The translations under genes were made by a program, and so were the position numbers. From Hypericibacter terrae (GTDB lineage Bacteria > Pseudomonadota > Alphaproteobacteria > Dongiales > Dongiaceae): a stretch of 64,000 nt of DNA. The notes under the pieces were generated by a model. That model was not told where the DNA came from, ran no database searches, and saw only the letters and a list, made by a program, of their open reading frames with translations. Location: assembly GCF_008728855.1 (NCBI RefSeq), contig NZ_CP042906.1, forward strand, positions 2,790,001-2,854,000. The letters are read 5' to 3'. This document shows, in pieces, positions 1 to 15,190 of this stretch. How positions within the stretch are numbered: the stretch's first letter is position 1; each line of letters begins with the position of its first letter.

Positions 1-1094
1 GCTTCGGTCTCGCGGAGATATTTCTCGAGCATGCGCTGGGCCCGCACATAATGCTCGGCCAGAATGAACTGCGCGAAGGCCAGGCCGCTGCGCACATCCT
101 CGCCATAGAGGGCCATCTTCTCCGGCAGATAGCGTCGGTGATAGGAAAGCACCTCCGGCATCTGCAGCAGCAGCGATACGGTGCGCGCCTGGGCCAGATC
201 CGGCAGCGTCACCGGCAGGAGCGTGGCGCCGCGCTCGGCGAGGCGGGCCAGGCAGCGGCGCGTGGCCGCCAGAATCTCGGGGTCGGCATGCTCGAAGAAA
301 TGACGCTCGGGAACGCCGATGCGCAAACCTTTTACGCCACGCGTCAAGGCTTTTGCGTAGTCGGGCACGACCCATTCGGCCGAACCGCTGTCGCGCGGGT
401 CGTGGCCGGCCAGTGACTGCAGAACCAGCGCCGCGTCGCCCACACAGCCGGCGATCAGCCCGACATGATCGAGCGACCAGCAATAGGGGATCATGCCATC
501 GCGGCTGACGCGGCCATAGGTCGGCTTCAATCCCACGAGGCCGCAGAGCGCGGCCGGCACGCGGGTCGAGCCGCCGGTGTCGCTGCCAAGCGCGAAACAG
601 GCGAGCCCCTGCGCCACCGCGACCGCCGAGCCGCTGCTGGAGCCGCCGGCCATGCGGCCCGGGCCCCAGGGGTTTGGCGGCGTGCCGAAGCGGGCATTCT
701 CGCCGGTCGTGCCATGCGCGAACTCATGCAGGTTGGCCTTGCCGATCAGGATGGCGCCGGCCGCATTAAGCCGCTCGATCGCGGCGGCATCACGATCGGA
801 CTGCCAGCCTTCGAGCACCCGCGAGCCCCCCGTGGTCGGCAGGCGGCGCGTCTCGAACAGATCCTTCGCGGCATAGGGCACGCCCGCCAGCGGCCCCGCG
901 ATCTCGCGCCGCTCGCATCGCCGCGCCGCATCGCGTGCACCCTCGCCATCGACCGAAATATAAGCCTTGGTCTTGTCGTTGAGGCGATCGATCCGGTCCA
1001 GCAGCCGATCGATCATGCCCGTGACCGAGGCCGTGCCTTCGCGGGCCGACGCCGCCAGCCGCGCCGCGGATTCCGTGAGGCAGGGCGCGGGCAT
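1..1094 (-). CDS. Amidase signature family hydrolase, 3' end cut by window edge
   Basis: This is the N-terminal 364 codons of an amidase-signature enzyme; the C-terminus lies beyond base 1. The Ser-cisSer-Lys triad reads as K77 (in GVPYAAKDLF), S152 (in GGSSSGSA) and S176 (in SDTGGSTRVP). The 99- and 24-residue spacings are those of the family (as in FAAH). The family hydrolyses carboxamides. The ATG overlaps the stop of the upstream small gene by one base (TGATG), so the two are translationally coupled, as GatC/GatA-like or AtzG/AtzE-like pairs often are. Third in a minus-strand operon after the M24 gene and the small subunit. The substrate cannot be told; the operon suggests an amide or ureido compound. 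A GatA of the tRNA amidotransferase is less likely because no gatB is beside it, though the downstream side is not visible. Confidence 0.92.
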   Translation of the reverse strand, partial: MPAPCLTESAARLAASAREGTASVTGMIDRLLDRIDRLNDKTKAYISVDGEGARDAARRCERREIAGPLAGVPYAAKDLFETRRLPTTGGSRVLEGWQSDRDAAAIERLNAAGAILIGKANLHEFAHGTTGENARFGTPPNPWGPGRMAGGSSSGSAVAVAQGLACFALGSDTGGSTRVPAALCGLVGLKPTYGRVSRDGMIPYCWSLDHVGLIAGCVGDAALVLQSLAGHDPRDSGSAEWVVPDYAKALTRGVKGLRIGVPERHFFEHADPEILAATRRCLARLAERGATLLPVTLPDLAQARTVSLLLQMPEVLSYHRRYLPEKMALYGEDVRSGLAFAQFILAEHYVRAQRMLEKYLRETE

Positions 1095-1309
1095 CAAGGC
1101 CTGCGCTTCTTGTCGGGGAGGCGTCCGGGCAAGCCGGTCGCGCCGAGGTCGAGGCGGCACAGCGCCTCGACCTCGGTCAGGAATTCCGGAAAACCGGTGA
1201 TGACACCGAATTGCGGTGCCACCAGACCGTCGAGTTCGGCATCGGGCCACCCGACGCTCGGCAGCTCCTCCACCATCCGGCGCAGGCTGTCGCGCGTGAC
1301 GCGTCGCAT
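1094..1309 (-). CDS. Small GatC/AtzG-like subunit of the amidase
   Basis: A 71-residue acidic-to-basic protein starting at an ATG behind a good GGAGGAG site. Its stop overlaps the amidase start (TGATG). Size, position directly before an amidase, and an N-terminal helical stretch followed by an extended LDLGATGLPGRLP tail resemble the small partners (GatC, AtzG) that wrap around amidase-signature subunits. Identity with a named family is not certain; the call rests mainly on context and length. It begins 31 bases after the stop of the M24 gene, so it belongs to the same operon. Confidence 0.65.
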   Translation of the reverse strand: MRRVTRDSLRRMVEELPSVGWPDAELDGLVAPQFGVITGFPEFLTEVEALCRLDLGATGLPGRLPDKKRRP

Positions 1310-1340: not shown

Positions 1341-2495
1341 CTAGAGGACGGTCAGGCCGCGCGGGAACTCGGTCAGATAGTCGAAACCCTTCTCGGTCAC
1401 GATGATCGAATCGCCAATGCGGGTGCCGTAGCGCCCCTTGACCGTGATCCCGCCATCGACCGCGAAGGCCATGCCGGCCTGCAGCTTCGTCTTGTCGCCC
1501 TTCTTGAGCTGCGGGTCCTCGAGGAAGGAATAGCCGATGCCCCGCCCCGTCCGGTAGGAGAGGCCGAACCCGGCCGAGCGATAGACCTCCTCGGCGGCGG
1601 CATTGACGTCCTCGGCGACGGCGCCCGGTTTCACCAGCGCCAGGGCCGCCTGCTGCGCCTTGACCGTCGTCTCGTAGGTCTTGGCCTGCTCGTCCGTCAC
1701 GCTGCCGACGAAGAACTCGCGATCGAAGCCCAGCTTGAAATGGCGGAAATTCGCGATGCCGCAGAAGCAGAGATAGACCGGGTCGCCCTTGGCGATGCGC
1801 TTCACGGTCGAGCGGCGGTGGACCATGCAGGTATGCCGGCCCGACTGCATGATCTGCAGGTTGTAGATCGTCGGCGAGACATACTCGGCGGCATCGCTGT
1901 TCTGCAGCAGCTCGGCCGCCTTGCGCGTGCCGCCGGCGATGACCGCGAGCGCCACCTCATATTCGGGCACGCCCTCGGCGATGGCGGCCTTGCCGGCCTT
2001 GCCCATCGCGACCGCGACCTGCCCGGCCTGGCGCATGATGGCGATCTCTTCCGGCGACTTGATCATCCGCATCTTCGAGATCAGCTGGCTGCCCTCCACC
2101 AACTCGGCACCGCCGGCCGCATGGCGCAGGGCCTCCGTCACCTTGGGCGGCGTCTTGTGGTTCTCGAACATGATGCGGCGGCTCTTGTGGGTCGCGAAGA
2201 ACGCGTCCACATGCTTCATCCACTCGCCATCCACGCCGTCGACCCAGTCGCGGATGTCCTCGACCCAGGTCTGGTTGTGCATCAGCTCGGATTCCATCAG
2301 CGGGGTCACCAGGGTCGGCGCGCCCGAGCGCGGGACCAGCAGCAGAGTCGCGCGGTCCCACTCCATGCCCAGATAGCCGAAGCAGCCCGAGAAAAAGAAG
2401 ATCGAGTCCGGATCCGCCAGCAGAAAGGCATCGATCCTCTCGTCGGCCATCCGGCGCTGCAGCTCAGTCGTGCGCTGTTGAAAGACGTTGGTCAT
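1341..2495 (-). CDS. M24/creatinase-family protein without metal ligands
   Basis: A 384-residue two-domain protein. Residues 1-145 are the creatinase N-terminal domain; about 150-384 are the pita-bread M24 domain. The five metal ligands of M24 aminopeptidases (D, D, H, E, E) are not there. The first Asp position is C243 (GDPVYLCFCG), the second is not Asp, the His of GHGIG is R318 (GRGIGYSF), and the two Glu positions are D347 (AVDGG) and G361 (RIGDS). Creatinase itself is a metal-free member of this family, so a C-N hydrolase of the creatinase type is the best guess. The ATG at 2495 has a GGAAGGG site; a longer frame upstream has no support. First gene of the operon with the GatC-like subunit and the amidase. 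Its promoter region holds one GTATACCGGT half-site. Confidence 0.85.
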   Translation of the reverse strand: MTNVFQQRTTELQRRMADERIDAFLLADPDSIFFFSGCFGYLGMEWDRATLLLVPRSGAPTLVTPLMESELMHNQTWVEDIRDWVDGVDGEWMKHVDAFFATHKSRRIMFENHKTPPKVTEALRHAAGGAELVEGSQLISKMRMIKSPEEIAIMRQAGQVAVAMGKAGKAAIAEGVPEYEVALAVIAGGTRKAAELLQNSDAAEYVSPTIYNLQIMQSGRHTCMVHRRSTVKRIAKGDPVYLCFCGIANFRHFKLGFDREFFVGSVTDEQAKTYETTVKAQQAALALVKPGAVAEDVNAAAEEVYRSAGFGLSYRTGRGIGYSFLEDPQLKKGDKTKLQAGMAFAVDGGITVKGRYGTRIGDSIIVTEKGFDYLTEFPRGLTVL

Positions 2496-2536
2496 GGCGG
2501 ACCCTTCCGGTCGGTGGTGATGGGTTCTCCTGTTCT

Positions 2537-2546
2537 GTATACCGGT
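2537..2546 (+). promoter_or_regulatory. Candidate regulator half-site GTATACCGGT
   Basis: Ten bases, about 40 upstream of the M24 start codon. The sequence recurs, extended by a second arm, at 2762-2783 and (reverse strand) at 7271-7287. Probably recognised by the GntR-type regulator encoded at 4117-4821; this is inference from shared sequence and neighbourhood. Confidence 0.5.
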
Positions 2547-2761
2547 GGAGGCGCGTGGCCGCAAGTGAGCGCCGCGCCCTGAAGAGGCCTGATTTCCTAT
2601 CCGTTCGCCCTCAATATCGGCCCCGAGATATCCATTATTGTATTGTTTTTTATGTATTTTTTTGGCACGGGCTCCAGATCGCCGAGATCCAGCGGTTCGC
2701 CACGGCCGACATCGGCCTTATCGGCCGAAAGGAAAAGCGGTGGACCACAAAAGAAAATGTT

Positions 2762-2783
2762 GCATACCGGTCGCATACCGACC
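2762..2783 (+). promoter_or_regulatory. Candidate operator, duplicated GCATACCG upstream of ABC binding protein
   Basis: Two copies of GCATACCG start 11 bases apart (2762 and 2773), about 140 bases before the binding-protein ATG. The first copy reads ATACCGGT, matching the sites before the M24 operon and the MDR oxidoreductase. TTGCAT at 2760-2765 could be a -35 element, so a bound protein would cover the promoter. Confidence 0.55.
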
Positions 2784-2918
2784 GATTGTAGGCATTCACC
2801 AGCCATGTTACGGAATCACTGGAACCAAACCCCGAAACCCTTGCCCGCCCTCGCTCGTTATGGCCGTGACACGGCCGGTCCCGAGCGCGCCGGAAACCCA
2901 ATAAGGAAGGATCTCCAG

Positions 2919-3995
2919 ATGGCCCCACGGTTAAAGAACATCCTGCCCGCGATCGTCGCGGCGGGAAGCCTGCTGGCTGCCACGGCCGCCTACGCGGATT
3001 CAGTGACCGTGGTCTCCTATGGCGGCTCCTACACGGCGAGCCAGATCGAGGCCTATCACAAGCCCTTCACGGCCAAGACCGGCATCACGGTCAATTCCGC
3101 CGACTACAATGGCGGCGTCGCCGAGATCAAGGCCCAGGTCGAATCCGGCAATGTCACCTGGGACGTGGTCGATCTCGAGCTGCAGGATCTGCAGCGCGCC
3201 TGCCAGAACGGCTATCTCGAGCCGGTCGATGTCTCGACCATCACGCCCGCGCCCGACGGCACGCCGGCGACCGACGACTATCTCCCGGGCGCGCTCAACG
3301 AATGCGGCGTCGGCAACATCGCCTATTCCAACGTCATCGCTTATGACACCACGAAATTTCCCGGCGCCAAACCTACCTCGATCGCCGATTTCTTCGATAC
3401 GAAGAAGTTCCCCGGCAAGCGCGGCCTGCAGAAGCGCGGCGCGGCGGTGAGCATGGAATGGGCCCTTCTGGCGGACGGCGTGGCGCCGGCCGATGTCTAT
3501 AAGGTCCTCGGCACGGCCGCGGGCGTCGATCGCGCCTTCGCCAAGCTCGAGACCATCAAGAAGGACGTGATCTGGTACGACACCGGTGCCCAGGCGCCGC
3601 AGCTCCTGGCCGATGGCCAGGTCGTCATGACCAGCGCCTTCAACGGCCGCATCTACACGGCCATCACCGACAACAAGCAGCCCTTCGCCATCATCTGGAA
3701 CGACCAGATCTGGAACATAAATCTCTGGGGCATCATCAAGGGCACCAAGCATCTCGATGCGGCGCGTGCCTATGTGAAGTTCGCCACCGAGAGCCAGAAC
3801 ATCGCGAACCAGACCAAATACATCGCCTATGGCCCGCTGCGGAAATCCTCGCTGGCCCTGGCCGGCGACGCGGTGCGCCCCTGGCTGCCGACCTACGACA
3901 AGAATCTCGAGCATGCGCTGCAATACAACGCCGAGTTCTGGGCCGACCATGCCGACGAGCTCGACCAGCGCTTCAACGCCTGGCTCGCCAAGTAA
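2919..3995 (+). CDS. ABC importer periplasmic binding protein, PotD/spermidine-like family
   Basis: A 358-residue protein with a Sec signal peptide (MAPRLKNILPAIVAAGSLLA then cleavage near TAAYA-DS). The mature part has the start VTVVSYGGSYTASQIEAYHKPF and later NVTWDVVDLE typical of the polyamine/Fe-like extracellular solute-binding family 1. The ATG at 2919 follows an AAGGAAGGA ribosome site; the frame is open further upstream but the signal peptide fixes this start. It binds the substrate in the periplasm and delivers it to the permeases at 5111-7221. A hairpin terminator follows its stop, and it is separated from those permeases by the minus-strand regulator. Substrate unknown; homology to the second binding protein at 12263 is evident (YGGxxxxAQ, WDVVD, IKKDxxWY). 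Confidence 0.93.
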   Translation: MAPRLKNILPAIVAAGSLLAATAAYADSVTVVSYGGSYTASQIEAYHKPFTAKTGITVNSADYNGGVAEIKAQVESGNVTWDVVDLELQDLQRACQNGYLEPVDVSTITPAPDGTPATDDYLPGALNECGVGNIAYSNVIAYDTTKFPGAKPTSIADFFDTKKFPGKRGLQKRGAAVSMEWALLADGVAPADVYKVLGTAAGVDRAFAKLETIKKDVIWYDTGAQAPQLLADGQVVMTSAFNGRIYTAITDNKQPFAIIWNDQIWNINLWGIIKGTKHLDAARAYVKFATESQNIANQTKYIAYGPLRKSSLALAGDAVRPWLPTYDKNLEHALQYNAEFWADHADELDQRFNAWLAK

Positions 3996-4018
3996 GACGA
4001 CGGCACGACCAAGACGAA

Positions 4019-4060
4019 GAGCGGCGCGCAGGGCCTAAGGGCCTCGCGCGCCGCTCGCTT
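4019..4060 (+). terminator. Hairpin after the binding-protein gene
   Basis: GAGCGGCGCGC (4019-4029) pairs with GCGCGCCGCTC (4046-4056); the loop holds a nested AGGGCCT/AGGGCCT structure. Only a short T-poor tail (GCTTCATT) follows. It could reduce read-through from the binding protein toward the convergent regulator gene. Confidence 0.6.
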
Positions 4061-4116
4061 CATTGCCGATCGATGCGAAAGTCGGATGAACCCGCCCGCC
4101 GCCCGAGCGGGCGCCG

Positions 4117-4821
4117 CTATTGATGGCCCGAATGACCCAGAACGTAGTTGGTGATCCGGACCAGATTCATCGAGATATGATTGCGCCGGATATAGCCCAC
4201 CGCGCGCAGGTCGCTCGCCTGCAGCGCCCGGATGAACTCGCCGATCTCGGCGCGCAGCCAGCCGACCTCGGCCTCCCAATCCAGCTCCTGGACGATCCCG
4301 AAATAGACGCGGATGGTCTGATAGTAGAGCTGCTCGGTGATGCGGTGGAAGGAATCGTTGCCGGCGACCAAGCCCAACTCGTATTGGAGGTCGTTGTTGA
4401 TGCGGACGAACTCCTTGAAGTCGCGATGGCCGTCGAGCGCCTCGGCGCGGGCCAGCAGCGCCTTGAAGTTCGGCAACTTGGAATGGGAGCGCAGCGGCGC
4501 CGCGATGTCGCCCAGCGAAGCCGCCAGCACCATGCGCACCGCATAGACTTCACGGAGCGCCCGCAGCTCGACCGAGGTCACGATGGTGCCGACGCTTTGC
4601 TTGGTCTCGACCAGCCCCTGCGCCTCGAGGGACTGGAGCACCCGGCGGATCGGGGTGCGGCTGACATTGAACTCGGTGGCGAGCTCGCTTTCGCTCAGCG
4701 TCATGCCGGGCGGATAGACCAGCATGCAGATGCGCTCGCGAAGCAGGGCATGAAGCTCTTCATAGCGGATGCGGCCCGTGCTCTTCGGCGCCGCCGCTTC
4801 CCGCTCGACCTGTTTTGCCAT
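4117..4821 (-). CDS. GntR-family transcriptional regulator with FCD domain
   Basis: 234 residues from ATG 4821, which has a GGAAGTGAG site at proper distance; a second ATG at 4836 lacks one. Residues about 20-90 are the winged helix (LRERICMLVYPPGMTLSESELATEFNVSRTP core), followed by an all-helical FCD ligand domain with D/H residues such as NNDLQYELG and YIRRNHISMN. Members sense small acids or catabolites and repress uptake or degradation genes. It lies inside the transporter cluster, on the opposite strand between binding protein and permeases. No copy of the ATACCGGT element was found before its own start, so autoregulation is not evident. Confidence 0.92.
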   Translation of the reverse strand: MAKQVEREAAAPKSTGRIRYEELHALLRERICMLVYPPGMTLSESELATEFNVSRTPIRRVLQSLEAQGLVETKQSVGTIVTSVELRALREVYAVRMVLAASLGDIAAPLRSHSKLPNFKALLARAEALDGHRDFKEFVRINNDLQYELGLVAGNDSFHRITEQLYYQTIRVYFGIVQELDWEAEVGWLRAEIGEFIRALQASDLRAVGYIRRNHISMNLVRITNYVLGHSGHQ

Positions 4822-5110
4822 CTCACTTCCGGGCATCGTTTCGCTCTTGGGCTGCCGACTTGTCCTGCAACACAAGCCCTTGAGGTTTACCGCAGCGCAG
4901 GAGGCATAACAAGCCTCGCGCCCGGATTCACCATGGGGGCCGCAACCGGAACCTCCCGGCCGCCCCGTCATCGGCGGGGCCGGTCGCGATGACTCCGATC
5001 GGCTGGCAAATTGGCGTAACCTGGAACGCCGTGAGGCTAACGGGCCTCCGCGGCAGCATCCCGTTCGCCCCTTGCCACCCCGACCGCCGCGTCCCGACCG
5101 ACGAAACGCC

Positions 5111-6364
5111 ATGACCGCCGCCGCCCTGATCGAGAGCAACAGACCCGGCAACGAGCTGGCCCGGCGCTTGCGCCGCGCCGAACGGACGGCGAAGCTGCGG
5201 GCCTTCCTCCTGGTCCTGCCGCTCCTGCTGTTCGTGATCGTCGCCTTCGTGCTGCCGATCGGGCAGATGCTGTTGCGCAGCATCGACAACACCGCGCCCT
5301 GTCGCCTGATTCCACAAACTTGTCGGGCGCTGCAGGGCTGGGACGGCACCGGCACACCCGGCGAAGCCGTCTATGCCAGCTTCGCCCAGGAATTGACCCA
5401 GCTCTTCAAGGCCAAGACCGTCGACCAGCTCGGCACGCGGTTCAATTACGAGACCAGCGGCATGCTGAGCCTGGTCCGCTCGACGGCGCGCCAACTCAGC
5501 AAGGTAACGGAAGGCCCCTACCAGCCAGCCTTCGCCGCGATCGACCCGCTCTGGGCGGACCATGCGACCTGGGCGATGATCCGGCAGGCCGTGGTTCCCT
5601 ATACCAGCGCTTATTATCTCAACGCCCTCGACATGAAGCGCGATGCCGACGGCAACATCGTGGCGCAACCCGAAGATCAGCGGATCTACATCGCCATCTT
5701 CCTCCGGACCTTTTGGATCGGCCTGATCACGACGGGGATCTGCCTGCTGCTGGGATATCCCGTCGCCTATCTCCTGGCGCATGTCCCGACCTCGCTCAGC
5801 AACCGGCTGCTGATCCTGGTGCTGCTGCCCTTCTGGACCTCGCTCCTGGTCCGGACGACGTCATGGATCGTGCTGCTGCAGTCTAACGGCGTGGTGCTCG
5901 ATCTCCTGGTGCATCTGGGCATCGTCGCCGATAACGACCGTCCGACCCTGATCTACAACAAGGTCGGCACCTTCGTGGCGATGACGCATGTCCTGCTGCC
6001 TTTCATGATCCTGCCGCTCTACAGCGTGATGCGAACGATCTCGCCGCTCTACCAGCGCGCGGCGGAATCGCTGGGGGCGCATCCGGCAACCGCCTTCCTG
6101 CGCGTCTATCTGCCCCTGAGCCTGCCGGGGATCGGCGCCGGCGGCCTGCTCGTTTTCATCCTTTCGGTCGGCTACTACATCACCCCGGCCCTGGTCGGCG
6201 GACAGAGCGGGCAGCTCATCTCCAACCTGATCGCCTATCACATGCGGACCTCGCTGAACTGGGGGCTGGCCTCGGCCTTGAGCGCCATCCTGCTGGTCGC
6301 GGTCCTGCTGCTCTACTGGCTCTATAACCGCCTCGTCGGCCTCGACAACACGAAGCTGGGATAG
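5111..6364 (+). CDS. ABC importer permease, PotB-like, with long periplasmic loop
   Basis: A 417-residue inner-membrane permease. TM1 is at about 31-55; then about 135 residues of hydrophilic sequence precede the second segment at 193-223, far longer than the usual loop of this family. The remaining segments and the EAA loop (RAAESLGAHPATAFLRVYLP, 316-335) are standard for contact with an ATPase. The loop carries C64 and C71, possibly a disulphide. The ATG at 5111 was chosen from the hydrophobic profile and absence of other signals upstream. It is divergent from the GntR gene (289-base gap) and five bases before the next permease. Confidence 0.92.
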   Translation: MTAAALIESNRPGNELARRLRRAERTAKLRAFLLVLPLLLFVIVAFVLPIGQMLLRSIDNTAPCRLIPQTCRALQGWDGTGTPGEAVYASFAQELTQLFKAKTVDQLGTRFNYETSGMLSLVRSTARQLSKVTEGPYQPAFAAIDPLWADHATWAMIRQAVVPYTSAYYLNALDMKRDADGNIVAQPEDQRIYIAIFLRTFWIGLITTGICLLLGYPVAYLLAHVPTSLSNRLLILVLLPFWTSLLVRTTSWIVLLQSNGVVLDLLVHLGIVADNDRPTLIYNKVGTFVAMTHVLLPFMILPLYSVMRTISPLYQRAAESLGAHPATAFLRVYLPLSLPGIGAGGLLVFILSVGYYITPALVGGQSGQLISNLIAYHMRTSLNWGLASALSAILLVAVLLLYWLYNRLVGLDNTKLG

Positions 6365-6369
6365 GCGCC

Positions 6370-7221
6370 ATGGCAGCAACACCTCATCGCACCCGCTCGG
6401 GCCGCCTCTGGCATGGCGCCTATCTGACCTTCTGCGTGCTGGTCTTCGTCTTCCTGATCGCGCCCCTGATCGTGGTGGTGCCGCTCTCCTTCAACGCGCA
6501 GCCCTTCTTCACCTTCACCGAGGGCATGCTGCGCCTGGAGGCCGCCGCCTATTCGCTGCAATGGTATCGCGACATCCTCGCCAACGACCAATGGCTGCTG
6601 GCGATCCGCAACAGCGTGATCATCGCGAGCTGCGCCACCGCGCTCGCGACCGTGCTGGGCACGCTGGCCGCGGTCGGCCTCAGCCGGCCCACCATGCCGC
6701 TGCGCGGCCTGGTCATGACGATCCTGATCTCGCCGATGATCATCCCGATCATCATCGTCTCGGCCGGCATGTATTTCTTCTATTCGCAGGTCGGCCTCGC
6801 CCAGACCATGCTGGGCATCATCCTGGCGCATGCGGTGCTGGGCACGCCCTTCGTCGTCATCACCGTGACCGCGACCATGATGAATTTCGATTACAGCCTG
6901 ACCCGGGCGGCGGCCAGCCTGGGCGCGCCGCCGCTCCTGACTTTCTTCCGCGTGGTGCTGCCCCTGATCCTGCCGGGCGTCGTCTCGGGGGCGCTCTTTG
7001 CCTTTGCCGCCTCCTTCGACGAGGTTGTCGTGGTGCAATTCCTGGCCGCCTTCGACCAGCGCACCATCCCGCTCCAGATGTGGGCCGGCATCCGCGAGCA
7101 GATCAGCCCGACCATCCTGGCGGTGGCGACCCTGCTGATCGTCGTCTCGGCGCTGATCCTCACGGCGGTCGAGCTGCTGCGCGCCCGCGTCAATAATCAG
7201 CGCGGCGTCAAAACCATCTGA
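6370..7221 (+). CDS. ABC importer permease, PotC-like
   Basis: 283 residues with six predicted membrane segments beginning GAYLTFCVLVFVFLIAPLIV. The EAA loop is TRAAASLGAPPLLTFFRVVL near residues 177-196. It pairs with the permease just upstream to form the heterodimeric channel. The gene starts five bases after the previous stop. No ATPase gene follows; the next gene is an oxidoreductase with its own promoter. The ATPase may come from elsewhere, for example the homologous system at 9425. Confidence 0.93.
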   Translation: MAATPHRTRSGRLWHGAYLTFCVLVFVFLIAPLIVVVPLSFNAQPFFTFTEGMLRLEAAAYSLQWYRDILANDQWLLAIRNSVIIASCATALATVLGTLAAVGLSRPTMPLRGLVMTILISPMIIPIIIVSAGMYFFYSQVGLAQTMLGIILAHAVLGTPFVVITVTATMMNFDYSLTRAAASLGAPPLLTFFRVVLPLILPGVVSGALFAFAASFDEVVVVQFLAAFDQRTIPLQMWAGIREQISPTILAVATLLIVVSALILTAVELLRARVNNQRGVKTI

Positions 7222-7270
7222 TCCCTGCGGCAGCGTCACTAAATTGTCCCGGGACTCATGCCGCGATTGT

Positions 7271-7287
7271 GTATGCAACCGGTATAC
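7271..7287 (-). promoter_or_regulatory. Candidate operator GTATGCAACCGGTATAC before the MDR gene
   Basis: An imperfect inverted repeat: arms GTATGC and GTATAC around five bases. Read on the minus strand it is GTATACCGGTTGCATAC, i.e. the ATACCGGT-Y-GCATAC layout of the site at 2762. It lies 68-84 bases before the MDR start. The three sites tie the M24 operon, the binding protein and this gene into one likely regulon. Confidence 0.55.
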
Positions 7288-7354
7288 TGTATCTTCAGAA
7301 CAGCCAATGAGAGCCGCGCGATGCCGCGGCTCGATCCTTCGAGAGGAGTTCCCC

Positions 7355-8470
7355 ATGACGGCATCCGCGACCATTCCGAGAACCATGAAGGCCGTGGTGC
7401 TGACCGGCCATGGCGGGCTCGAGAAGCTCGTCTACAGGACCGACGTGAAGGTGCCGGTGCCCAACAAGGGCGAGGTGCTGATCGAGGTCTCGGCCTGCGG
7501 CATGAACAATACGGATGTGTGGGTGCGTCAGGCCGCCTACGGCACCGATGAGGATCCGAAGGCGCCCTCCTCCTGGCGGCGCGGCGGCACCACCCTCACC
7601 TTTCCCCGCATCCAGGGCACCGACAGCGTCGGGCGCATCGTCGCCGTGGGCGCCGGCGTCGATGCCAAGCGGATCGGCCAGCGCGTCATGGTCGATTTCA
7701 GCATCTACAACGCGGAGGACGACAGCCTCGCCGACTGCGACTACATCGGCCATGGCCGCGACGGGGGCTATGCCGAATATCTGACGGTGCCGGCCGAGAA
7801 CGCGCATGTCGTCCGCCGCCCCATGACCGACGCCGAACTCGCCACCTTCTGCTGCGCCTATCTGACCGGCGAGCATATGCTCGATCGTGCCCGCGTCGCC
7901 GCCGGCGAGCGGGTGCTAATCACCGGGGCCTCGGGCGGCGTGGGGTCGGGCCTGGTGCAGCTGGTGCGCGCCCGCGGCGGCATTCCCTATGCCGTGGCCG
8001 GCCCCGGGAAGGAAGACCAGGTCAAGGCGATCGGCGCGGAAGCCGTCGTCACACGCGGCAAGGGCGACCTCGTCGCCGAGGTGGCCAAGGCCACCGGCGG
8101 CAAGCCGATCGACGTGGTGGCGGATCTCGTCGGCGGCTCGATGTTCAACGATCTCCTGCGGATCCTGCGCGCGGAGGGCCGCTATGTGACGGCGGGCGCC
8201 ATCGGCGGCCCCGTGGTCGAGCTCGATCTCCGCACCCTCTATCTCAAGCATCTGGAGATGCATGGCTCGACCCAGGGCACGCGCGGCGCCTTCCGGCGCC
8301 TGGTCGGTTATATCGAGGACGGTAAGATCAACGCCATCCTGGCGGCCACCTACAAGCTCTCGGACTTCCACCGCGCTCAGACCGAGTTCATGAACAAGGG
8401 ATTCGTCGGCAAGCTGGTGGTGGTGCCGGATGCCAAATGGGACCTCGCCAGCAAGCGCCCCGCGGCCTAG
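7355..8470 (+). CDS. MDR-family NAD(P)H-dependent oxidoreductase (quinone-reductase type)
   Basis: 371 residues from ATG 7355 behind GAGAGGAG. Residues about 12-130 are the GroES-like alcohol-dehydrogenase domain; the nucleotide-binding fold carries TGASGGVGSGLVQLVRARG. The catalytic-zinc Cys of zinc alcohol dehydrogenases is not in its usual context (ACGMNNTDVWV), so a zinc-free quinone-oxidoreductase-like or enoyl-reductase-like role is likely. Regulated, by inference, through the operator at 7271. Transcription ends in the strong terminator at 8500. Substrate unknown; the regulon suggests it acts on a product of the imported amide. Confidence 0.9.
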   Translation: MTASATIPRTMKAVVLTGHGGLEKLVYRTDVKVPVPNKGEVLIEVSACGMNNTDVWVRQAAYGTDEDPKAPSSWRRGGTTLTFPRIQGTDSVGRIVAVGAGVDAKRIGQRVMVDFSIYNAEDDSLADCDYIGHGRDGGYAEYLTVPAENAHVVRRPMTDAELATFCCAYLTGEHMLDRARVAAGERVLITGASGGVGSGLVQLVRARGGIPYAVAGPGKEDQVKAIGAEAVVTRGKGDLVAEVAKATGGKPIDVVADLVGGSMFNDLLRILRAEGRYVTAGAIGGPVVELDLRTLYLKHLEMHGSTQGTRGAFRRLVGYIEDGKINAILAATYKLSDFHRAQTEFMNKGFVGKLVVVPDAKWDLASKRPAA

Positions 8471-8938: not shown

Positions 8939-8975
8939 TATTCTCCTAGTGAGGATTTCAGTAGAAACATACACT

Positions 8976-9437
8976 ATGGATGACACGGACCGCAAAATCC
9001 TGACGATCCTCCAGGCCGACGCCACCGTCGCGCTGGCGGACCTGGCCGAGCAGGTCAATCTCTCGACCACGCCCTGCTGGCGCCGGATCAAGGCGCTCGA
9101 GGAGAAGGGCGTCATCACCAAGCGGGTGGCCCTGCTCGATCCGGTGAAGATGAATGTCGGCCTCACCGTCTTCATCGCGATCCGCACCAGCCAGCATTCG
9201 CTCGACTGGCTGACGCGCTTCCAGCGCGCCATCGACGGCATCCCGGAGATCGTCGAGGTCTATCGCATGAGCGGGCAGATCGATTATCTGCTGCGCGCCG
9301 TGGTGCCGGACATCGCCGCCTATGACAGCGTCTATAAGCGGATCATCCAGCGCATCGAGCTTTCGGACGTGACCTCGATGATGGCCATGGAGGTAATCAA
9401 GGCCACCACGGTCCTGCCGGTTACCTACGCCGGGTAG
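8976..9437 (+). CDS. Lrp/AsnC-family transcriptional regulator
   Basis: 153 residues from ATG 8976 (MDDTDRKIL, the usual family start); a GTG at 8949 would add nine residues. No clear ribosome site is seen for either. Residues 1-60 form the helix-turn-helix (LADLAEQVNLSTTPCWRRIKAL) and 65-150 the RAM effector domain. Proteins of this group respond to amino acids or related compounds. The last 13 bases overlap the 3' end of the convergent ATPase gene. A decayed copy of this gene type is at 17890-18055. Confidence 0.94.
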   Translation: MDDTDRKILTILQADATVALADLAEQVNLSTTPCWRRIKALEEKGVITKRVALLDPVKMNVGLTVFIAIRTSQHSLDWLTRFQRAIDGIPEIVEVYRMSGQIDYLLRAVVPDIAAYDSVYKRIIQRIELSDVTSMMAMEVIKATTVLPVTYAG

Positions 9438-10540
9438 CCGCCCCCTGCCCGCTCTGCGTTCGCGAAGAACAGGATCGGGCCCTCGTCGGACAGCGTAACC
9501 CGGCAGCGGCTCGGGTCCTGGCCGCCGGGCTTGAACTCGGCGGGCGCGCAGCGGATCGACAATTCCTGACCCCAGGCGGTGACGGCCGCGATCTGCATCG
9601 TCTCGCCGAGATAAGTCGCATCGCGGATGGTCGCAGGGAAACCGGCACCTCCGCCGTTGCCGTCAAGCGGGCGGATGCGGAACTGCTCTGGCCGCGCCAG
9701 GAGCGCGCCCTCGACCCCGACCTTCAAGGCTTGGTTGGCCCGCACATTCCCGATCAGGGTTCCATCCGGCATCAGCGCCGTCGCGCGATCGCCCTCAACG
9801 CTCTTCAGCGTCGCGCGCAGGAAGTTCGAATTGCCGACGAATCCCGCCACGAACATGTTGGCGGGGTTGTCATAGAGCGATTTTCCCACCGCGATCTGCT
9901 CGATGCGGCCGTGGTTGAATACCGCGATGCGGTCCGAGAGCCGCAGGGCCTCTTCCTGGTCGTGCGTCACATAGATGATGGTGGCGCCGGTCTCCCGGTG
10001 GATGCGCCGGATCTCGAGCTGGAGATCCTCCTTGAGCCGCTTGTCGAGCGCCGCCAGCGGCTCGTCCATCAGCAGAATCTCGGGGTCGTAGGCGAGCGCC
10101 CGCGCCAGGGCCACACGCTGCTGCTGCCCGCCGGAAAGCTCCGTCGGCTTGCGCCTGGCGAACTTTTCCAGCCGCACCAGCTTCAGCATCTCCTCGAGCC
10201 GCTTCTCGATGCGCGCCCGCGACCAATGCCGCACCTTGAGGGGAAAGGTGATGTTGTCCCGGACATTCATATGCGGGATCAGGGTATAGCGCTGGAACAC
10301 CATCCCGATATTGCGCTTGTTGGGCGGCGTATCGAGCAGCGACTTTCCCGAAAGCGAGATGTCGCCCTGGGTCGCCTCATGCAGACCCGCGATCAGATAG
10401 AGCAGCGTCGATTTGCCCGAGCCCGACGGCCCGAGGAAGGTGACGAACTCGCCCTTCTCGATGTCCAGGCTCACATCGTTCACAGCCGCGGAGTCCTGGA
10501 ACCGCTTGCTGACGCCCCGGATCGAAAGGAACGCGCTCAC
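9425..10540 (-). CDS. ABC importer ATPase, PotA-like
   Basis: 371 residues from a GTG at 10540 that overlaps the upstream permease stop (GTGA). Walker A is GPSGSGKST (37-45), Q-loop VFQ, signature LSGGQQQR (135-142), Walker B LLMDE (156-160), H-loop THDQEEA. A C-terminal TOBE domain begins near residue 240 (FVGNSNFLRATL). It energises import by the two permeases just upstream. The frame stays open into the permease gene, but the GTG fits family length. It is the only such ATPase in the window, while two sets of binding protein plus permeases are present. Confidence 0.95.
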   Translation of the reverse strand: MSAFLSIRGVSKRFQDSAAVNDVSLDIEKGEFVTFLGPSGSGKSTLLYLIAGLHEATQGDISLSGKSLLDTPPNKRNIGMVFQRYTLIPHMNVRDNITFPLKVRHWSRARIEKRLEEMLKLVRLEKFARRKPTELSGGQQQRVALARALAYDPEILLMDEPLAALDKRLKEDLQLEIRRIHRETGATIIYVTHDQEEALRLSDRIAVFNHGRIEQIAVGKSLYDNPANMFVAGFVGNSNFLRATLKSVEGDRATALMPDGTLIGNVRANQALKVGVEGALLARPEQFRIRPLDGNGGGAGFPATIRDATYLGETMQIAAVTAWGQELSIRCAPAEFKPGGQDPSRCRVTLSDEGPILFFANAERAGGGYPA

Positions 10541-11334
10541 CCCCGCCTCCTCATGAGCAGAGCGCTGATCAGCAGCAGGACGATCGTCAGCAGCACCATC
10601 AGGCTCGAGGCGGCCGCGATCACGGGTGTCAGATCCTGGCGCAGCGTCGTCCATATCTTGACCGGGAATGTCTGCAAGGTGGGGCTTGCCATGAAGATGG
10701 CGATGACGATCTCGTCCCACGAGGCCAGGAACGAGAAGATGGCGGCGGTGAAGAGGCTGAAGCGAATTGCCGGGATGGTCACCCGGAGCTTCGCCTGCAG
10801 CGAGCTGGCGCCGCAGAGGATGGCGGCGTCCTCGATGGCCTTGTCGAAATTCAAGAGCGCATTGCCGATGACGATCACGGAGAACGGGAGCGCGATGACC
10901 AGATGGGCGAGGACGAAGCCTGCCAGCGTGCCGTTCAGCCCGACCCGCAGGAACAGCGAATAGATCCCGACCGCCAGCACGACCACCGGGAGCACCATGG
11001 GCATCAGCAGGAAGACCCGCAAGATCGACTTGCCGGGGAAGGTCCCCCGCGTGATCGCCAGGGCAGACCAGAAGCCGAGCACGACCGAGCAGACGGCGAC
11101 GAGGATCCCCACCTTGGCGCTCGCCAGGACCGACTGGATCCATTGCGGGTTGGCGAAGAACTCGCCGTACCATTTGAGCGTCCAAGCGGGCGGCGGGAAG
11201 ATCAGCCAGCGCGACGAGCCGAAGGACAGCAGGACGATGAAGACGATTGGCAGCAGCAGGAAGGCGCAGGCGAGCGTGCCGATCGCGCCGAGCAGCCAGC
11301 GCAGTCCGCCGAGCCGTTCGAAGTCGAGCAGCAT
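10537..11334 (-). CDS. ABC importer permease, PotC-like
   Basis: 265 residues, six predicted membrane segments. The EAA loop reads EDAAILCGASSLQAKLRVTI near residue 175. Its start lies four bases after the stop of the partner permease and its stop overlaps the ATPase GTG, so all are one operon. Inner membrane; forms the channel with the next upstream gene product. Confidence 0.94.
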   Translation of the reverse strand: MLLDFERLGGLRWLLGAIGTLACAFLLLPIVFIVLLSFGSSRWLIFPPPAWTLKWYGEFFANPQWIQSVLASAKVGILVAVCSVVLGFWSALAITRGTFPGKSILRVFLLMPMVLPVVVLAVGIYSLFLRVGLNGTLAGFVLAHLVIALPFSVIVIGNALLNFDKAIEDAAILCGASSLQAKLRVTIPAIRFSLFTAAIFSFLASWDEIVIAIFMASPTLQTFPVKIWTTLRQDLTPVIAAASSLMVLLTIVLLLISALLMRRRG

Positions 11335-11338
11335 CGCC

Positions 11339-12211
11339 TCAGCCCTTCCGCGCGTCGGTCAGGGGATCGAACAGGCGGATCTGCAGGGCATAGAGCGCCA
11401 GGGTCGCGGCGAAGAGGATGAAGGCCGCCGCCGCCCCCAGGCCCCAGTTCAGCATCGACTGGATCAGCTGCACGATCAGCTCGGCCAGCATCATGTAGGA
11501 GGGTCCGCCCAGCAGCACCGGCGTCACGAAATAGCCCAGCGACATGACGAAGACCATCAGGCAGCCGGCGACGATGCCGGACGCGCAGTTTGGCAGGAAG
11601 ACATGCAGGAAGCATTGCAGGCGCGAGGCGCCGCACAGCGAAGCCGCCCGCAGCACGGCGGGGTCCATCGCCTTCATCGTCGCGTAGAGCGGCAGCACGA
11701 TGAAGGGGAACATGATGTAGGTCATGCCGATCGTGACGCCGATCAGGTTGTTCGTCAGGGCCAGCGGCGTGTCGATCACACCCAGCGCGATCAGGGCCCG
11801 GTTGATGACGCCCGTCGACTGCAGGAGGATCATCCAGGCGAAGGTCCGTGTCAGGAGATTCGTCCACATCGACAGCAGGATCACCGCGAAGACCGCCATC
11901 GCCCAGAACCGGGAGACGACCGCCAGCAGCCAGGCCACGGGAAAGCCGACGGCGAGCGTCACCAGGGTCACCGTCGTCGAGACGATGAAGGTGTTGAACA
12001 GGATCGTGCGGTAGGACGACGAGCTCAGCAGCTCGGCATAGTTCTGGAGGCCGGGCTGCGGATCCAGGAAGCTCCGCGACAGCAGGATCAGGACCGGGAG
12101 GACGAACAGCGCCGACAGAAGCAGCAGGGCCGGCATCGCCAAGACCAGACCGCTGGCTCTGATATTGCGGATATAGGACCGCAAACCGAGAACGGAGGTC
12201 GGGTTTCCCAT
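11339..12211 (-). CDS. ABC importer permease, PotB-like
   Basis: 290 residues with six predicted membrane segments, the first about 18-42 (LVLAMPALLLLSALFVLPVL). The EAA loop LRAASLCGASRLQCFLHVFL lies near 185-205. The loop after TM1 is short, unlike the paralogue at 5111. It starts 51 bases after the binding-protein stop. Confidence 0.93.
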   Translation of the reverse strand: MGNPTSVLGLRSYIRNIRASGLVLAMPALLLLSALFVLPVLILLSRSFLDPQPGLQNYAELLSSSSYRTILFNTFIVSTTVTLVTLAVGFPVAWLLAVVSRFWAMAVFAVILLSMWTNLLTRTFAWMILLQSTGVINRALIALGVIDTPLALTNNLIGVTIGMTYIMFPFIVLPLYATMKAMDPAVLRAASLCGASRLQCFLHVFLPNCASGIVAGCLMVFVMSLGYFVTPVLLGGPSYMMLAELIVQLIQSMLNWGLGAAAAFILFAATLALYALQIRLFDPLTDARKG

Positions 12212-14557: not shown

Positions 14558-15190
14558 TCAATAGTAGGGCGCCGTTATCCGCTCGATCGCGAGAGCGTCG
14601 AGGACCGATTGGCGGCTGCAAACCCGCTCCATGAGCCGGGAGAGATTCGGGAATGTCCGCGTCGGACGCGCGATATGCCGCGACCATCGTCCCAGCATGA
14701 AGAGATAGAAGTCGGCGATCGAGAGGCTGTCGCCCGCGAGACAGGCCCTGCCCTCCAGATGACGATCGAGCACCTCGAGATGCCGGGCGACATGACCCTG
14801 CATCACATCCTTGAAGGCGTCCCGCCGCTCCGGCTCCACATAGAATTCCGGGCGGAAATACTGCCAGAGATCGGCCTGCAGCGTGTTGGTGAGGAAGGTG
14901 AGCCATTGGTAAGTGTGTGAGCGGACGTCGCTGCCCAGTCCGGCAATCAGCTTCGCCTCGGGATGCCGGTCGGCCAGATGCAGGCAGATCGCCGCGGATT
15001 CGAACAGCGCGAAGCTTCCGTCCGTGAAGGTCGGGATCCGCCCGTTCGGGTTGATGGCGAGATAGTCGGCGGACTTGTGCTGGCCCAGCGTGCGGTCCAC
15101 CAGAACCAGCTCATGCGGGACGCCGATCTCCCGCAAGATGAAATGCGGCGCGAGGCTGGCCAGTCCCGGCGAATAATAGAGCTTGTACAT
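14558..15190 (-). CDS. Glutathione S-transferase family protein
   Basis: 210 residues. Residues 1-78 are the thioredoxin-like domain (KLYYSPGLASLAPHFILREIGVP, with NPNGRIPTF and the ESAAICLHLAD glutathione-binding motif); 85-205 are the helical domain with the SIADFYLFMLG N-capping region. The catalytic Ser/Tyr is probably S8 or Y6. The gene starts 27 bases after the amidohydrolase stop, hence same transcript. Role in the pathway unknown: conjugation, isomerisation or dehalogenation are all seen in relatives. The 228 bases after its stop, up to the M19 gene, show no gene. Confidence 0.93.
   Translation of the reverse strand: MYKLYYSPGLASLAPHFILREIGVPHELVLVDRTLGQHKSADYLAINPNGRIPTFTDGSFALFESAAICLHLADRHPEAKLIAGLGSDVRSHTYQWLTFLTNTLQADLWQYFRPEFYVEPERRDAFKDVMQGHVARHLEVLDRHLEGRACLAGDSLSIADFYLFMLGRWSRHIARPTRTFPNLSRLMERVCSRQSVLDALAIERITAPYY

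Follow-up and report, generated by a model that had tools for sequence, protein, structure and literature searches.

This work concerns a locus at the left end of a 64,000-nucleotide stretch of the Hypericibacter terrae genome (NZ_CP042906.1, positions 2,790,001 to 2,854,000 of the forward strand; hereafter the window), in which a gene for a GntR/FCD regulator lies among an operon for an M24 family hydrolase, an amidase and a PhzF-like enzyme, the genes for a periplasmic binding protein (SBP) and two permeases of an ABC importer, and that for an enzyme of the zinc-binding alcohol dehydrogenase superfamily (MDR; Table 1). Three related elements upstream of the M24 operon, the SBP gene and the MDR gene very probably represent, as judged from their sequence and conservation, operators of the local regulator, which would repress these genes. 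Such an operator set is of a known kind of local control, of which this regulon is a new example.

Candidate operators in the window and their conservation

According to an earlier note on this DNA, a shared operator ATACCGGT occurs at 2537, in the region 2762-2783 and, on the minus strand, at 7271-7287. All of these positions were confirmed: GTATACCGGT is present exactly at 2537-2546 (+) and 7278-7287 (-) and with one mismatch (GCATACCGGT) at 2762-2771, and GTATACCGGTTGCATAC is found at 7271-7287 (-). Similarly, the sites do reside in promoter regions of a single locus with a GntR/FCD regulator (Pfam PF00392 and PF07729), being located 39-50 bp (M24), 138-160 bp (SBP) and 65-87 bp (MDR) upstream of the respective start codons. 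At no more than one mismatch, GTATACCGGT has three matches in the 64 kb, where 0.52 were expected, and only 1 of 100 shuffles reached this number. GCATACCG, which occurs at 2762 and 2773, is at chance level in the window (2 matches, 1.55 expected; 49 of 100 shuffles reach 2), and its weight thus derives solely from where it lies, from the tandem arrangement at 11 bp and from the fact that it is conserved.

The complete 5.9-Mb genome (G000) contains three exact copies of GTATACCGGT (reversed control, 7), two of them at the locus. The third was rejected as a member of the regulon, as it resides inside a coding sequence which, from its translation, reads as sucD-like, and does so likewise in a second genome of the same genus (G001); a match to CTGCATACAG at G000:C1:5813037 was discarded because it falls within a frame whose translation reads as an acyltransferase. 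The tandem GYATACCGGNNGYATAC is more selective. Without mismatch it occurs twice in the window's genome (2762-2778 and 7271-7287) and twice in G001 at the matching places, while no exact copy was found in four other genomes of the family or in 384 other genomes of the class (385 searched including the window's own, without G001; the reversed control gave 5 matches). At up to two mismatches the counts fall below the control (10 versus 20 in G000, 7 versus 12 in G001), indicating that only the exact tandem discriminates. The broader pattern YTGYATACMS showed no steady enrichment genome-wide (16 versus 27 for the reversed control in G000, 18 versus 9 in G001).

The same locus is present in G001, with a GntR protein 95% and an M24 protein 91% identical to those of the window. 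The M24-SBP intergenic region is 62% identical between the two species (ungapped columns) and retains the identical blocks TCTGTATACCGGTG (14 bp), CAAAAGAAAATGTTGCATACCGGT (24 bp) and GCATACCGAC (10 bp); the DNA preceding the MDR gene is only 51% identical, yet keeps ATTGTGTATGCAACCGGTATAC (22 bp). Further blocks are also preserved in the M24-SBP region, e.g. the 17-bp ACCAGCCATGTTACGGA, and thus an identical block alone does not mark an operator.

A core shared with other bacteria

The operator was defined from other bacteria. A scan with the M24 protein, using one genome per species, yielded 184 loci, of which the best 80 were kept, and the intergenic regions were viewed in nine of these, where a GntR homologue of about 40-45% identity was the nearest such match. 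Four of the nine, L081-L083 (Paraburkholderia, Trinickia) and L085 (a Mesorhizobium plasmid), carry the amidase and the whole importer, three (L087, L089 and L093) the whole importer, L097 (Chelativorans) the amidase, and L084 the M24 and GntR genes alone. The viewed regions contain palindromes of the form CTGYATACAG. In the eight loci other than L084, 14 sites at no more than one mismatch fall into the 3125 chosen bases, compared with 27 in all 165,934 bases. A symmetric 12-bp matrix was built from 13 sites of seven loci (Burkholderiaceae, Phyllobacteriaceae and Rhodovibrionaceae), none of them from the window's family. When the window was ranked with this matrix, the M24 site at 2534 came first, the MDR site at 7268 second and the SBP site at 2759 ninth. 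These ranks suggest one good core per promoter, to which the SBP and MDR promoters add a weak core 11 bp away.

By its sequence, the shared element is best read as the core, GYATAC, of a GntR operator of the FCD type, a pseudo-palindrome, with 'CGGT' as a flank seen in the genus. The earlier proposal was thus right about a shared site but not about its unit, as ATACCGGT combines the right half of the core with the flanking bases that separate two cores, whereas the consensus in other loci is CTGYATACAG. Among the loci examined, only the window's genus keeps the tandem with a CGG flank; G008 has one CTGTATACCGG.

The matrix was then applied to 69 of the 80 loci, leaving aside the seven matrix loci, L087 (identical to L041, from the window's family) and three with less than 300 bp upstream. 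Where a GntR gene lies no more than 3 kb away, 14 of 19 loci reached a score of at least 12 in the 300 bp preceding the M24 gene, as compared with none of five with a GntR gene farther away and one (L140) of 45 in which none was found (Fisher p about 3e-9 for the GntR link, with kinship of the loci ignored). With 200 column-permuted matrices, the mean was 0.26 and the maximum 4 of 19. The result is stable at cut-offs from 9 to 13 (12-15 of 19 versus 1 of 45), while at 8 the numbers are 15 and 4; omission of L084, which had been viewed previously, leaves 13 of 18 at cut-off 12. M24 relatives that are 59-67% identical and for which no GntR gene was found at E 1e-8 (L071-L078) do not score 12 upstream. 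The site thus goes with the regulator gene and not with the enzyme. The expectation that the motif would accompany the orthologous GntR gene in relatives is borne out as far as the core is concerned; the regulators compared are homologues only (29-45% identical to that of the window), their strict orthology outside the genus not being supported by the tree.

The core is not private to M24 loci. This possibility was rejected, as similar cores lie upstream of 4 of 14 other GntR homologues of the family or class (score of at least 10 within 500 bp; 95th percentile of random 500-bp stretches, 9.3). The outer bases of those upstream sites differ (GCTATATACAGC, GCTGTATATAGC, GTTGTACACAAC), and some of the 14 have GTTGTATACATC-like sites 3-4 kb away. 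Matches within the GntR coding sequences (at 4719 and in the G001 counterpart) coincide with the codons of a conserved RICxL motif and were not counted.

The regulator and known systems

The regulator belongs to the GntR/FCD group (PF00392, 67.1 bits, cut-off 27; PF07729, 30.0 bits, cut-off 24.3). Its structural model (mean pLDDT 91.5) matches FCD structures over residues 16-232, the nearest solved folds being McbR (Z 20.9), AlkR (VanR; 20.5), PmiR (19.3) and Atu1419 (VanR; 16.7), with FadR at 12.6 and below. In the predicted model, six long C-terminal helices and one of five residues agree with the six-helix FCD domain of the VanR group; among the fold matches, only AlkR and Atu1419 carry the label VanR. 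The cut-offs of the named NCBIfam regulators PhnR_burk, NanR, UxuR, PdhR and LldR were not reached, the best score being that of PhnR_burk (71.4 versus 271.5 bits). Residues R55, T56, P57 and R59 are invariant in 36 aligned regulators including that of the window, and a profile alignment places them on R45, T46, P47 and R49 of Atu1419. As a side observation from the alignments, the FCD domain does not seem to retain every one of the zinc-binding histidines of Atu1419, which hints at a metal-free effector site.

According to the sections of the Atu1419 report that were compared (PMC7797058), Arg45, Thr46 and Arg49 of this protein contact DNA and the protein binds ATGTATACAT; its sites are 190 bp apart, and tetramer formation with looping was proposed. 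Atu1419 (PDB 6z74, 6za3) and the regulator of the window share the fold class, the DNA-contact residues R-T-x-x-R and a 10-bp palindrome, ATGTATACAT in the case of Atu1419, with the same GTATAC core, and in both systems a palindrome lies over the -10 box, a probable one in the window, and two sites are found in a divergent region (PMC7797058, same sections). Paired sites are similarly seen, as sites, at 2534 and 2759 (225 bp) and, 62-63 bp apart, in 17 other loci. Unlike here, the outer bases are AT...AT in Atu1419, as compared with CT...AG or CT...CG; the proteins are only 18-21% identical, and the pathway under Atu1419 control is that of hydroxycinnamic acids (PMC7797058, same sections).

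NanR of Escherichia coli binds, in the part of the report compared (PMC8012715), a (GGTATA)3 operator of tandem direct repeats as three dimers and cooperatively. The SBP tandem of the window likewise reads GGTATG...GGTATG on the minus strand, but its cores number two rather than three and are 11 bp apart, other loci have single palindromes, and the fold score is lower (6on4, Z 13.4 over 127 residues). For operators of the FadR subfamily, the main-text sections compared of Suvorova et al. 2015 (PMC4494728) describe palindromes whose GT and AC boxes are separated by 2 nt in the GntR, HpxS, HypR, MdcY, PrpR and UxuR groups, additional boxes of lesser strength at a distance of 7-12 nt, and double sites at a near-constant distance in some divergons. 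The second cores at 11 bp thus fit both these extra boxes and the cooperative repeats of NanR, as far as those sections go. The sites in the window follow the rule of palindromic GT and AC boxes 2-3 nt apart: both boxes are present in GTATAC (2537, 7282), and one is altered to GC in GCATAC (2762, 2773) and GTATGC (7271). A regulator beside M24 genes is not named in the same main-text sections (PMC4494728; the supplements lie outside this comparison).

An earlier description of this regulon was not found in the literature, subscription papers being largely outside the search. Searches with CTGTATACAG gave no GntR paper by title, those for ExuR/UxuR with GGTATACC gave no match, and TGCATACA together with GntR gave only papers unrelated by title. 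There was also no match for any five or more of M24, GntR, amidase, maleate isomerase, ABC transporter and catabolism, or for PhzF with M24 and GntR.

Proposed mechanism and alternative explanations

We propose that a dimer of the regulator binds the pseudo-palindrome around GYATAC. The M24 site covers TATACA, the probable -10 hexamer of a putative promoter identified by eye, so binding there would block RNA polymerase; a consensus promoter scan gave nothing above threshold at either intergenic region, TTGCGG-N17-TATACA included. At the SBP and MDR promoters, the weaker second core one helical turn away (11 bp) might strengthen binding, and looping might connect the M24 and SBP sites across the 225 bp between them. 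An inducer, which is probably either the amide-like compound that is imported or a product of its breakdown, would bind to the FCD domain and cause the regulator to release the DNA, whereupon the M24-amidase-PhzF operon would be switched on together with the genes for the binding protein and the MDR enzyme.

Several observations weigh against this model. The initial consensus was chosen by eye from loci that were also used for the matrix, and the cut-offs were chosen after a score listing had been seen; five of the 19 GntR-linked test loci score below 12, four of them below 10. Within the window, the second cores are low-scoring (1.4 and 2.65), and the SBP site, with a score of 7.3, stays below the 95th percentile (8.1) of the best match in random 423-bp stretches. 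No site was detected upstream of the regulator gene or permease 1 (4822-5110; best matrix score -1.3); accordingly, of the link between M24 operon, importer and MDR gene that had been claimed, the M24, binding-protein and MDR genes are retained and the permeases are not. Regulators of this kind usually also control their own genes. Near M24 genes, an MDR enzyme at 69-70% identity was found in only three of the 80 loci. In a midpoint-rooted tree, the regulators of the window and of G001 fall outside the M24-linked clades, on a long branch (1.06), and the related proteins are thus called homologues and not orthologues. Finally, the cores beside other GntR homologues indicate that the core belongs to a wider group, so that cross-recognition by paralogues may occur, and the window's genome holds seven other matches to the regulator (eight with itself).

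Based on the latter points, it might be argued that these are genuine FCD-GntR operators but that a different FCD regulator encoded in the genome binds them, for instance the 43% identical paralogue G000:C1:84812, while the local one serves other sites. The additional matches in the genome and the regulator gene without a site of its own would agree with this, as would the fact that Atu1419, a different FCD regulator, has sites with the same GTATAC core. We nevertheless consider it improbable: exact tandem sites are found only around the local regulator gene, sites elsewhere follow the GntR genes beside M24, and the paralogue has no such site in its 500 bp upstream (best score 1.9; the best in its 18-kb stretch, 10.5, lies 3.4 kb away). 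There is a small chance that the regulator acts as an activator, or as a repressor at some promoters and an activator at others, as the SBP sites, 138-160 bp from the start codon, could lie upstream of the promoter. The M24 site, however, overlaps the probable -10 hexamer in two species, which is a repressor position, and the characterised Atu1419 and NanR are repressors in the sections of the reports compared. Mere chance resemblance of promoter elements, e.g. -10 hexamers TATAC, kept without a shared regulator would account for the chance-level frequency of GCATACCG and the modest enrichment of the 10-mer when the window alone is considered, but it is very hard to reconcile with the identical blocks of 14-24 bp around the main cores, with the rarity of the tandem in genomes and with ranks 1, 2 and 9 obtained by a matrix from other bacteria. 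Repression by the local regulator is therefore the explanation we prefer.

For the window itself, the proposed regulon amounts to ordinary local catabolic control. Beyond the window, a motif seen by eye has become a defined and transferable operator, CTGYATACAG, for regulators beside M24 catabolic genes in alpha- and betaproteobacteria and, in at least one assembly (L108), in gammaproteobacteria. Thus, members of such regulons can be predicted and the substrate can be sought.

Spacing of paired sites

Across 84 loci, 49 pairs of sites with scores of at least 9 and 13-350 bp apart were found, 14 of them at 62 bp and three at 63 bp; any other distance occurs at most three times (one locus, L041/L087, is counted twice). 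The 62/63-bp pairs (L100, L108, L122, L123, L125, L131, L132, L134, L136, L137, L139, L140, L143, L146, L148, L149 and L150) are mostly located upstream of M24 or GntR genes and stem mostly from alphaproteobacteria; in L131, L137, L139 and L146 the pair does not immediately precede the M24 gene. A GntR gene was detected in 16 of these 17 loci, and in a tree of 52 regulators the 16 proteins group with one other entry in a single 17-member clade (support 98/84). Elsewhere, the spacing is 236-239 bp (L081-L083), 104 bp (L085) and 93 bp (L097), and in the window 225 bp between the M24 and SBP sites, in addition to the 11-bp tandem cores. The geometry may vary by clade, with 62-63 bp in one, 93-104 or 236-239 bp in another, and 11-bp tandems plus the 225-bp pair in the window's genus.

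It might be speculated, albeit tentatively, that the M24-linked regulators constitute a broad group with one 10-bp core, a clade-specific geometry with fixed pairs, and an undescribed amide-like pathway. If so, the fixed pairs would imply that binding is generally cooperative or involves looping (by tetramers) in the group, and the pathway under its control would import an amide-like compound and degrade it with M24, amidase, PhzF-like and MDR enzymes. The 62-63-bp pairs of the relatives, the most interesting by-product of this analysis, offer a simple test case for how widespread tetrameric looping is among FCD regulators.

Genes of the locus

Table 1. Putative regulatory sites and genes of the locus, in window coordinates.
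Feature	Position	Strand	Remarks
M24 operon operator (putative) TCTGTATACCGG, core GTATAC 2537-2542	2534..2545		rank 1 in the 64-kb window; in 14-bp identical block
SBP operator (putative), first core GCATAC 2762-2767 GTTGCATACCGG	2759..2770		rank 9; in 24-bp identical block
SBP operator (putative), second, weaker core GCATAC 2773-2778	2770..2781		11 bp downstream of first; score 1.4, rank 140; core in 10-bp identical block
MDR operator (putative), first core GTATGC 7271-7276 TGTGTATGCAAC	7268..7279		rank 2; in 22-bp identical block 7266-7287
MDR operator (putative), second, weaker core GTATAC 7282-7287	7279..7290		11 bp from first; part of the earlier 7278-7287 match; score 2.65, rank 75; same 22-bp block
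Putative M24-operon promoter TTGCGG-N17-TATACA	2536..2564	-	same hexamers and spacing in G001, diverged spacer; by eye
Amidase signature family gene, 5' part	1..1094	-	PF01425, E 6.8e-113 on full gene from L045; remainder left of window
Small open reading frame, 71 aa, between M24 and amidase	1094..1309	-	G001 counterpart 77% identical over 62 residues; weaker ones (30-42%) in other loci
M24 family hydrolase (creatinase/prolidase fold)	1341..2495	-	PF00557, PF01321; first gene of M24-small-amidase-PhzF operon
Periplasmic binding protein (SBP), polyamine/opine-type ABC importer	2919..3995	+	PF13416
GntR/FCD regulator, VanR-like fold	4117..4821	-	PF00392, PF07729; model matches
ABC importer permease 1	5111..6364	+	PF00528
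ABC importer permease 2	6370..7221	+	PF00528
MDR (zinc-binding alcohol dehydrogenase superfamily) enzyme	7355..8470	+	PF08240, PF00107; closest PDB chain 4j6f, E 1e-174

The operon is arranged in the order M24, small open reading frame, amidase and PhzF-like enzyme, and all four genes are also present in G001. The M24 protein scores far below the model cut-offs for DoeA, DddP and prolidase; these identities were rejected and no pathway name was assigned. The 71-aa product of the small frame has no Pfam or NCBIfam match, and its counterparts of about 40-42% identity occur in the M24/amidase loci L129, L133, L135, L139, L144 and L150; it is somewhat reminiscent of small GatC-like amidase partners. 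Relatives of the SBP in the PDB include spermidine/putrescine, GABA-sensor, agropine and mannopine binding proteins. In L092 and L094, a gene for an MDR enzyme with 69-70% identity is a neighbour of M24 and PhzF genes, and in L076 such a gene lies near one for an SBP, which ties the enzyme to the pathway independently of the motif. It is a reasonable guess, but only a guess, that the locus serves to take up and hydrolyse an amide-like compound. A gene of the arylmalonate decarboxylase family (Pfam Amdase) adjoins the GntR gene in Mesorhizobium (L085:9056-9883) and Paraburkholderia (L081:8086-8835) and may serve as a clue to the pathway.

To the left of the window (L045:6522-9160), the M24 operon seems to continue with PhzF, a C15 pyroglutamyl peptidase and an ABC ATPase; pyroglutamyl-peptidase-like and ABC ATPase genes behind PhzF were not found in the G001 stretch. 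A second importer (L045:3454-6568) faces the M24 operon. In G001 a gene for the importer ATPase (L031:8350-9540) separates those of GntR and permease 1, and importers in related loci also possess one. It is missing in the window, where only its leader and first codons align (4886-5110), and the nearest ATPase of the window's genome, 59% identical, is encoded elsewhere. G001 harbors a second M24 locus (L035:8486-16199) with an M24 protein of 56% identity, importer genes, its own GntR gene and sites at 14645, 14795 and 15001; an M24 protein resembling this second one was not found in the window's genome. The region adjoining the locus in the window (8949-12211) contains a gene for an Lrp/AsnC regulator and, on the minus strand, what appears from the translations to be a further ABC importer set with an ATPase and two permeases.

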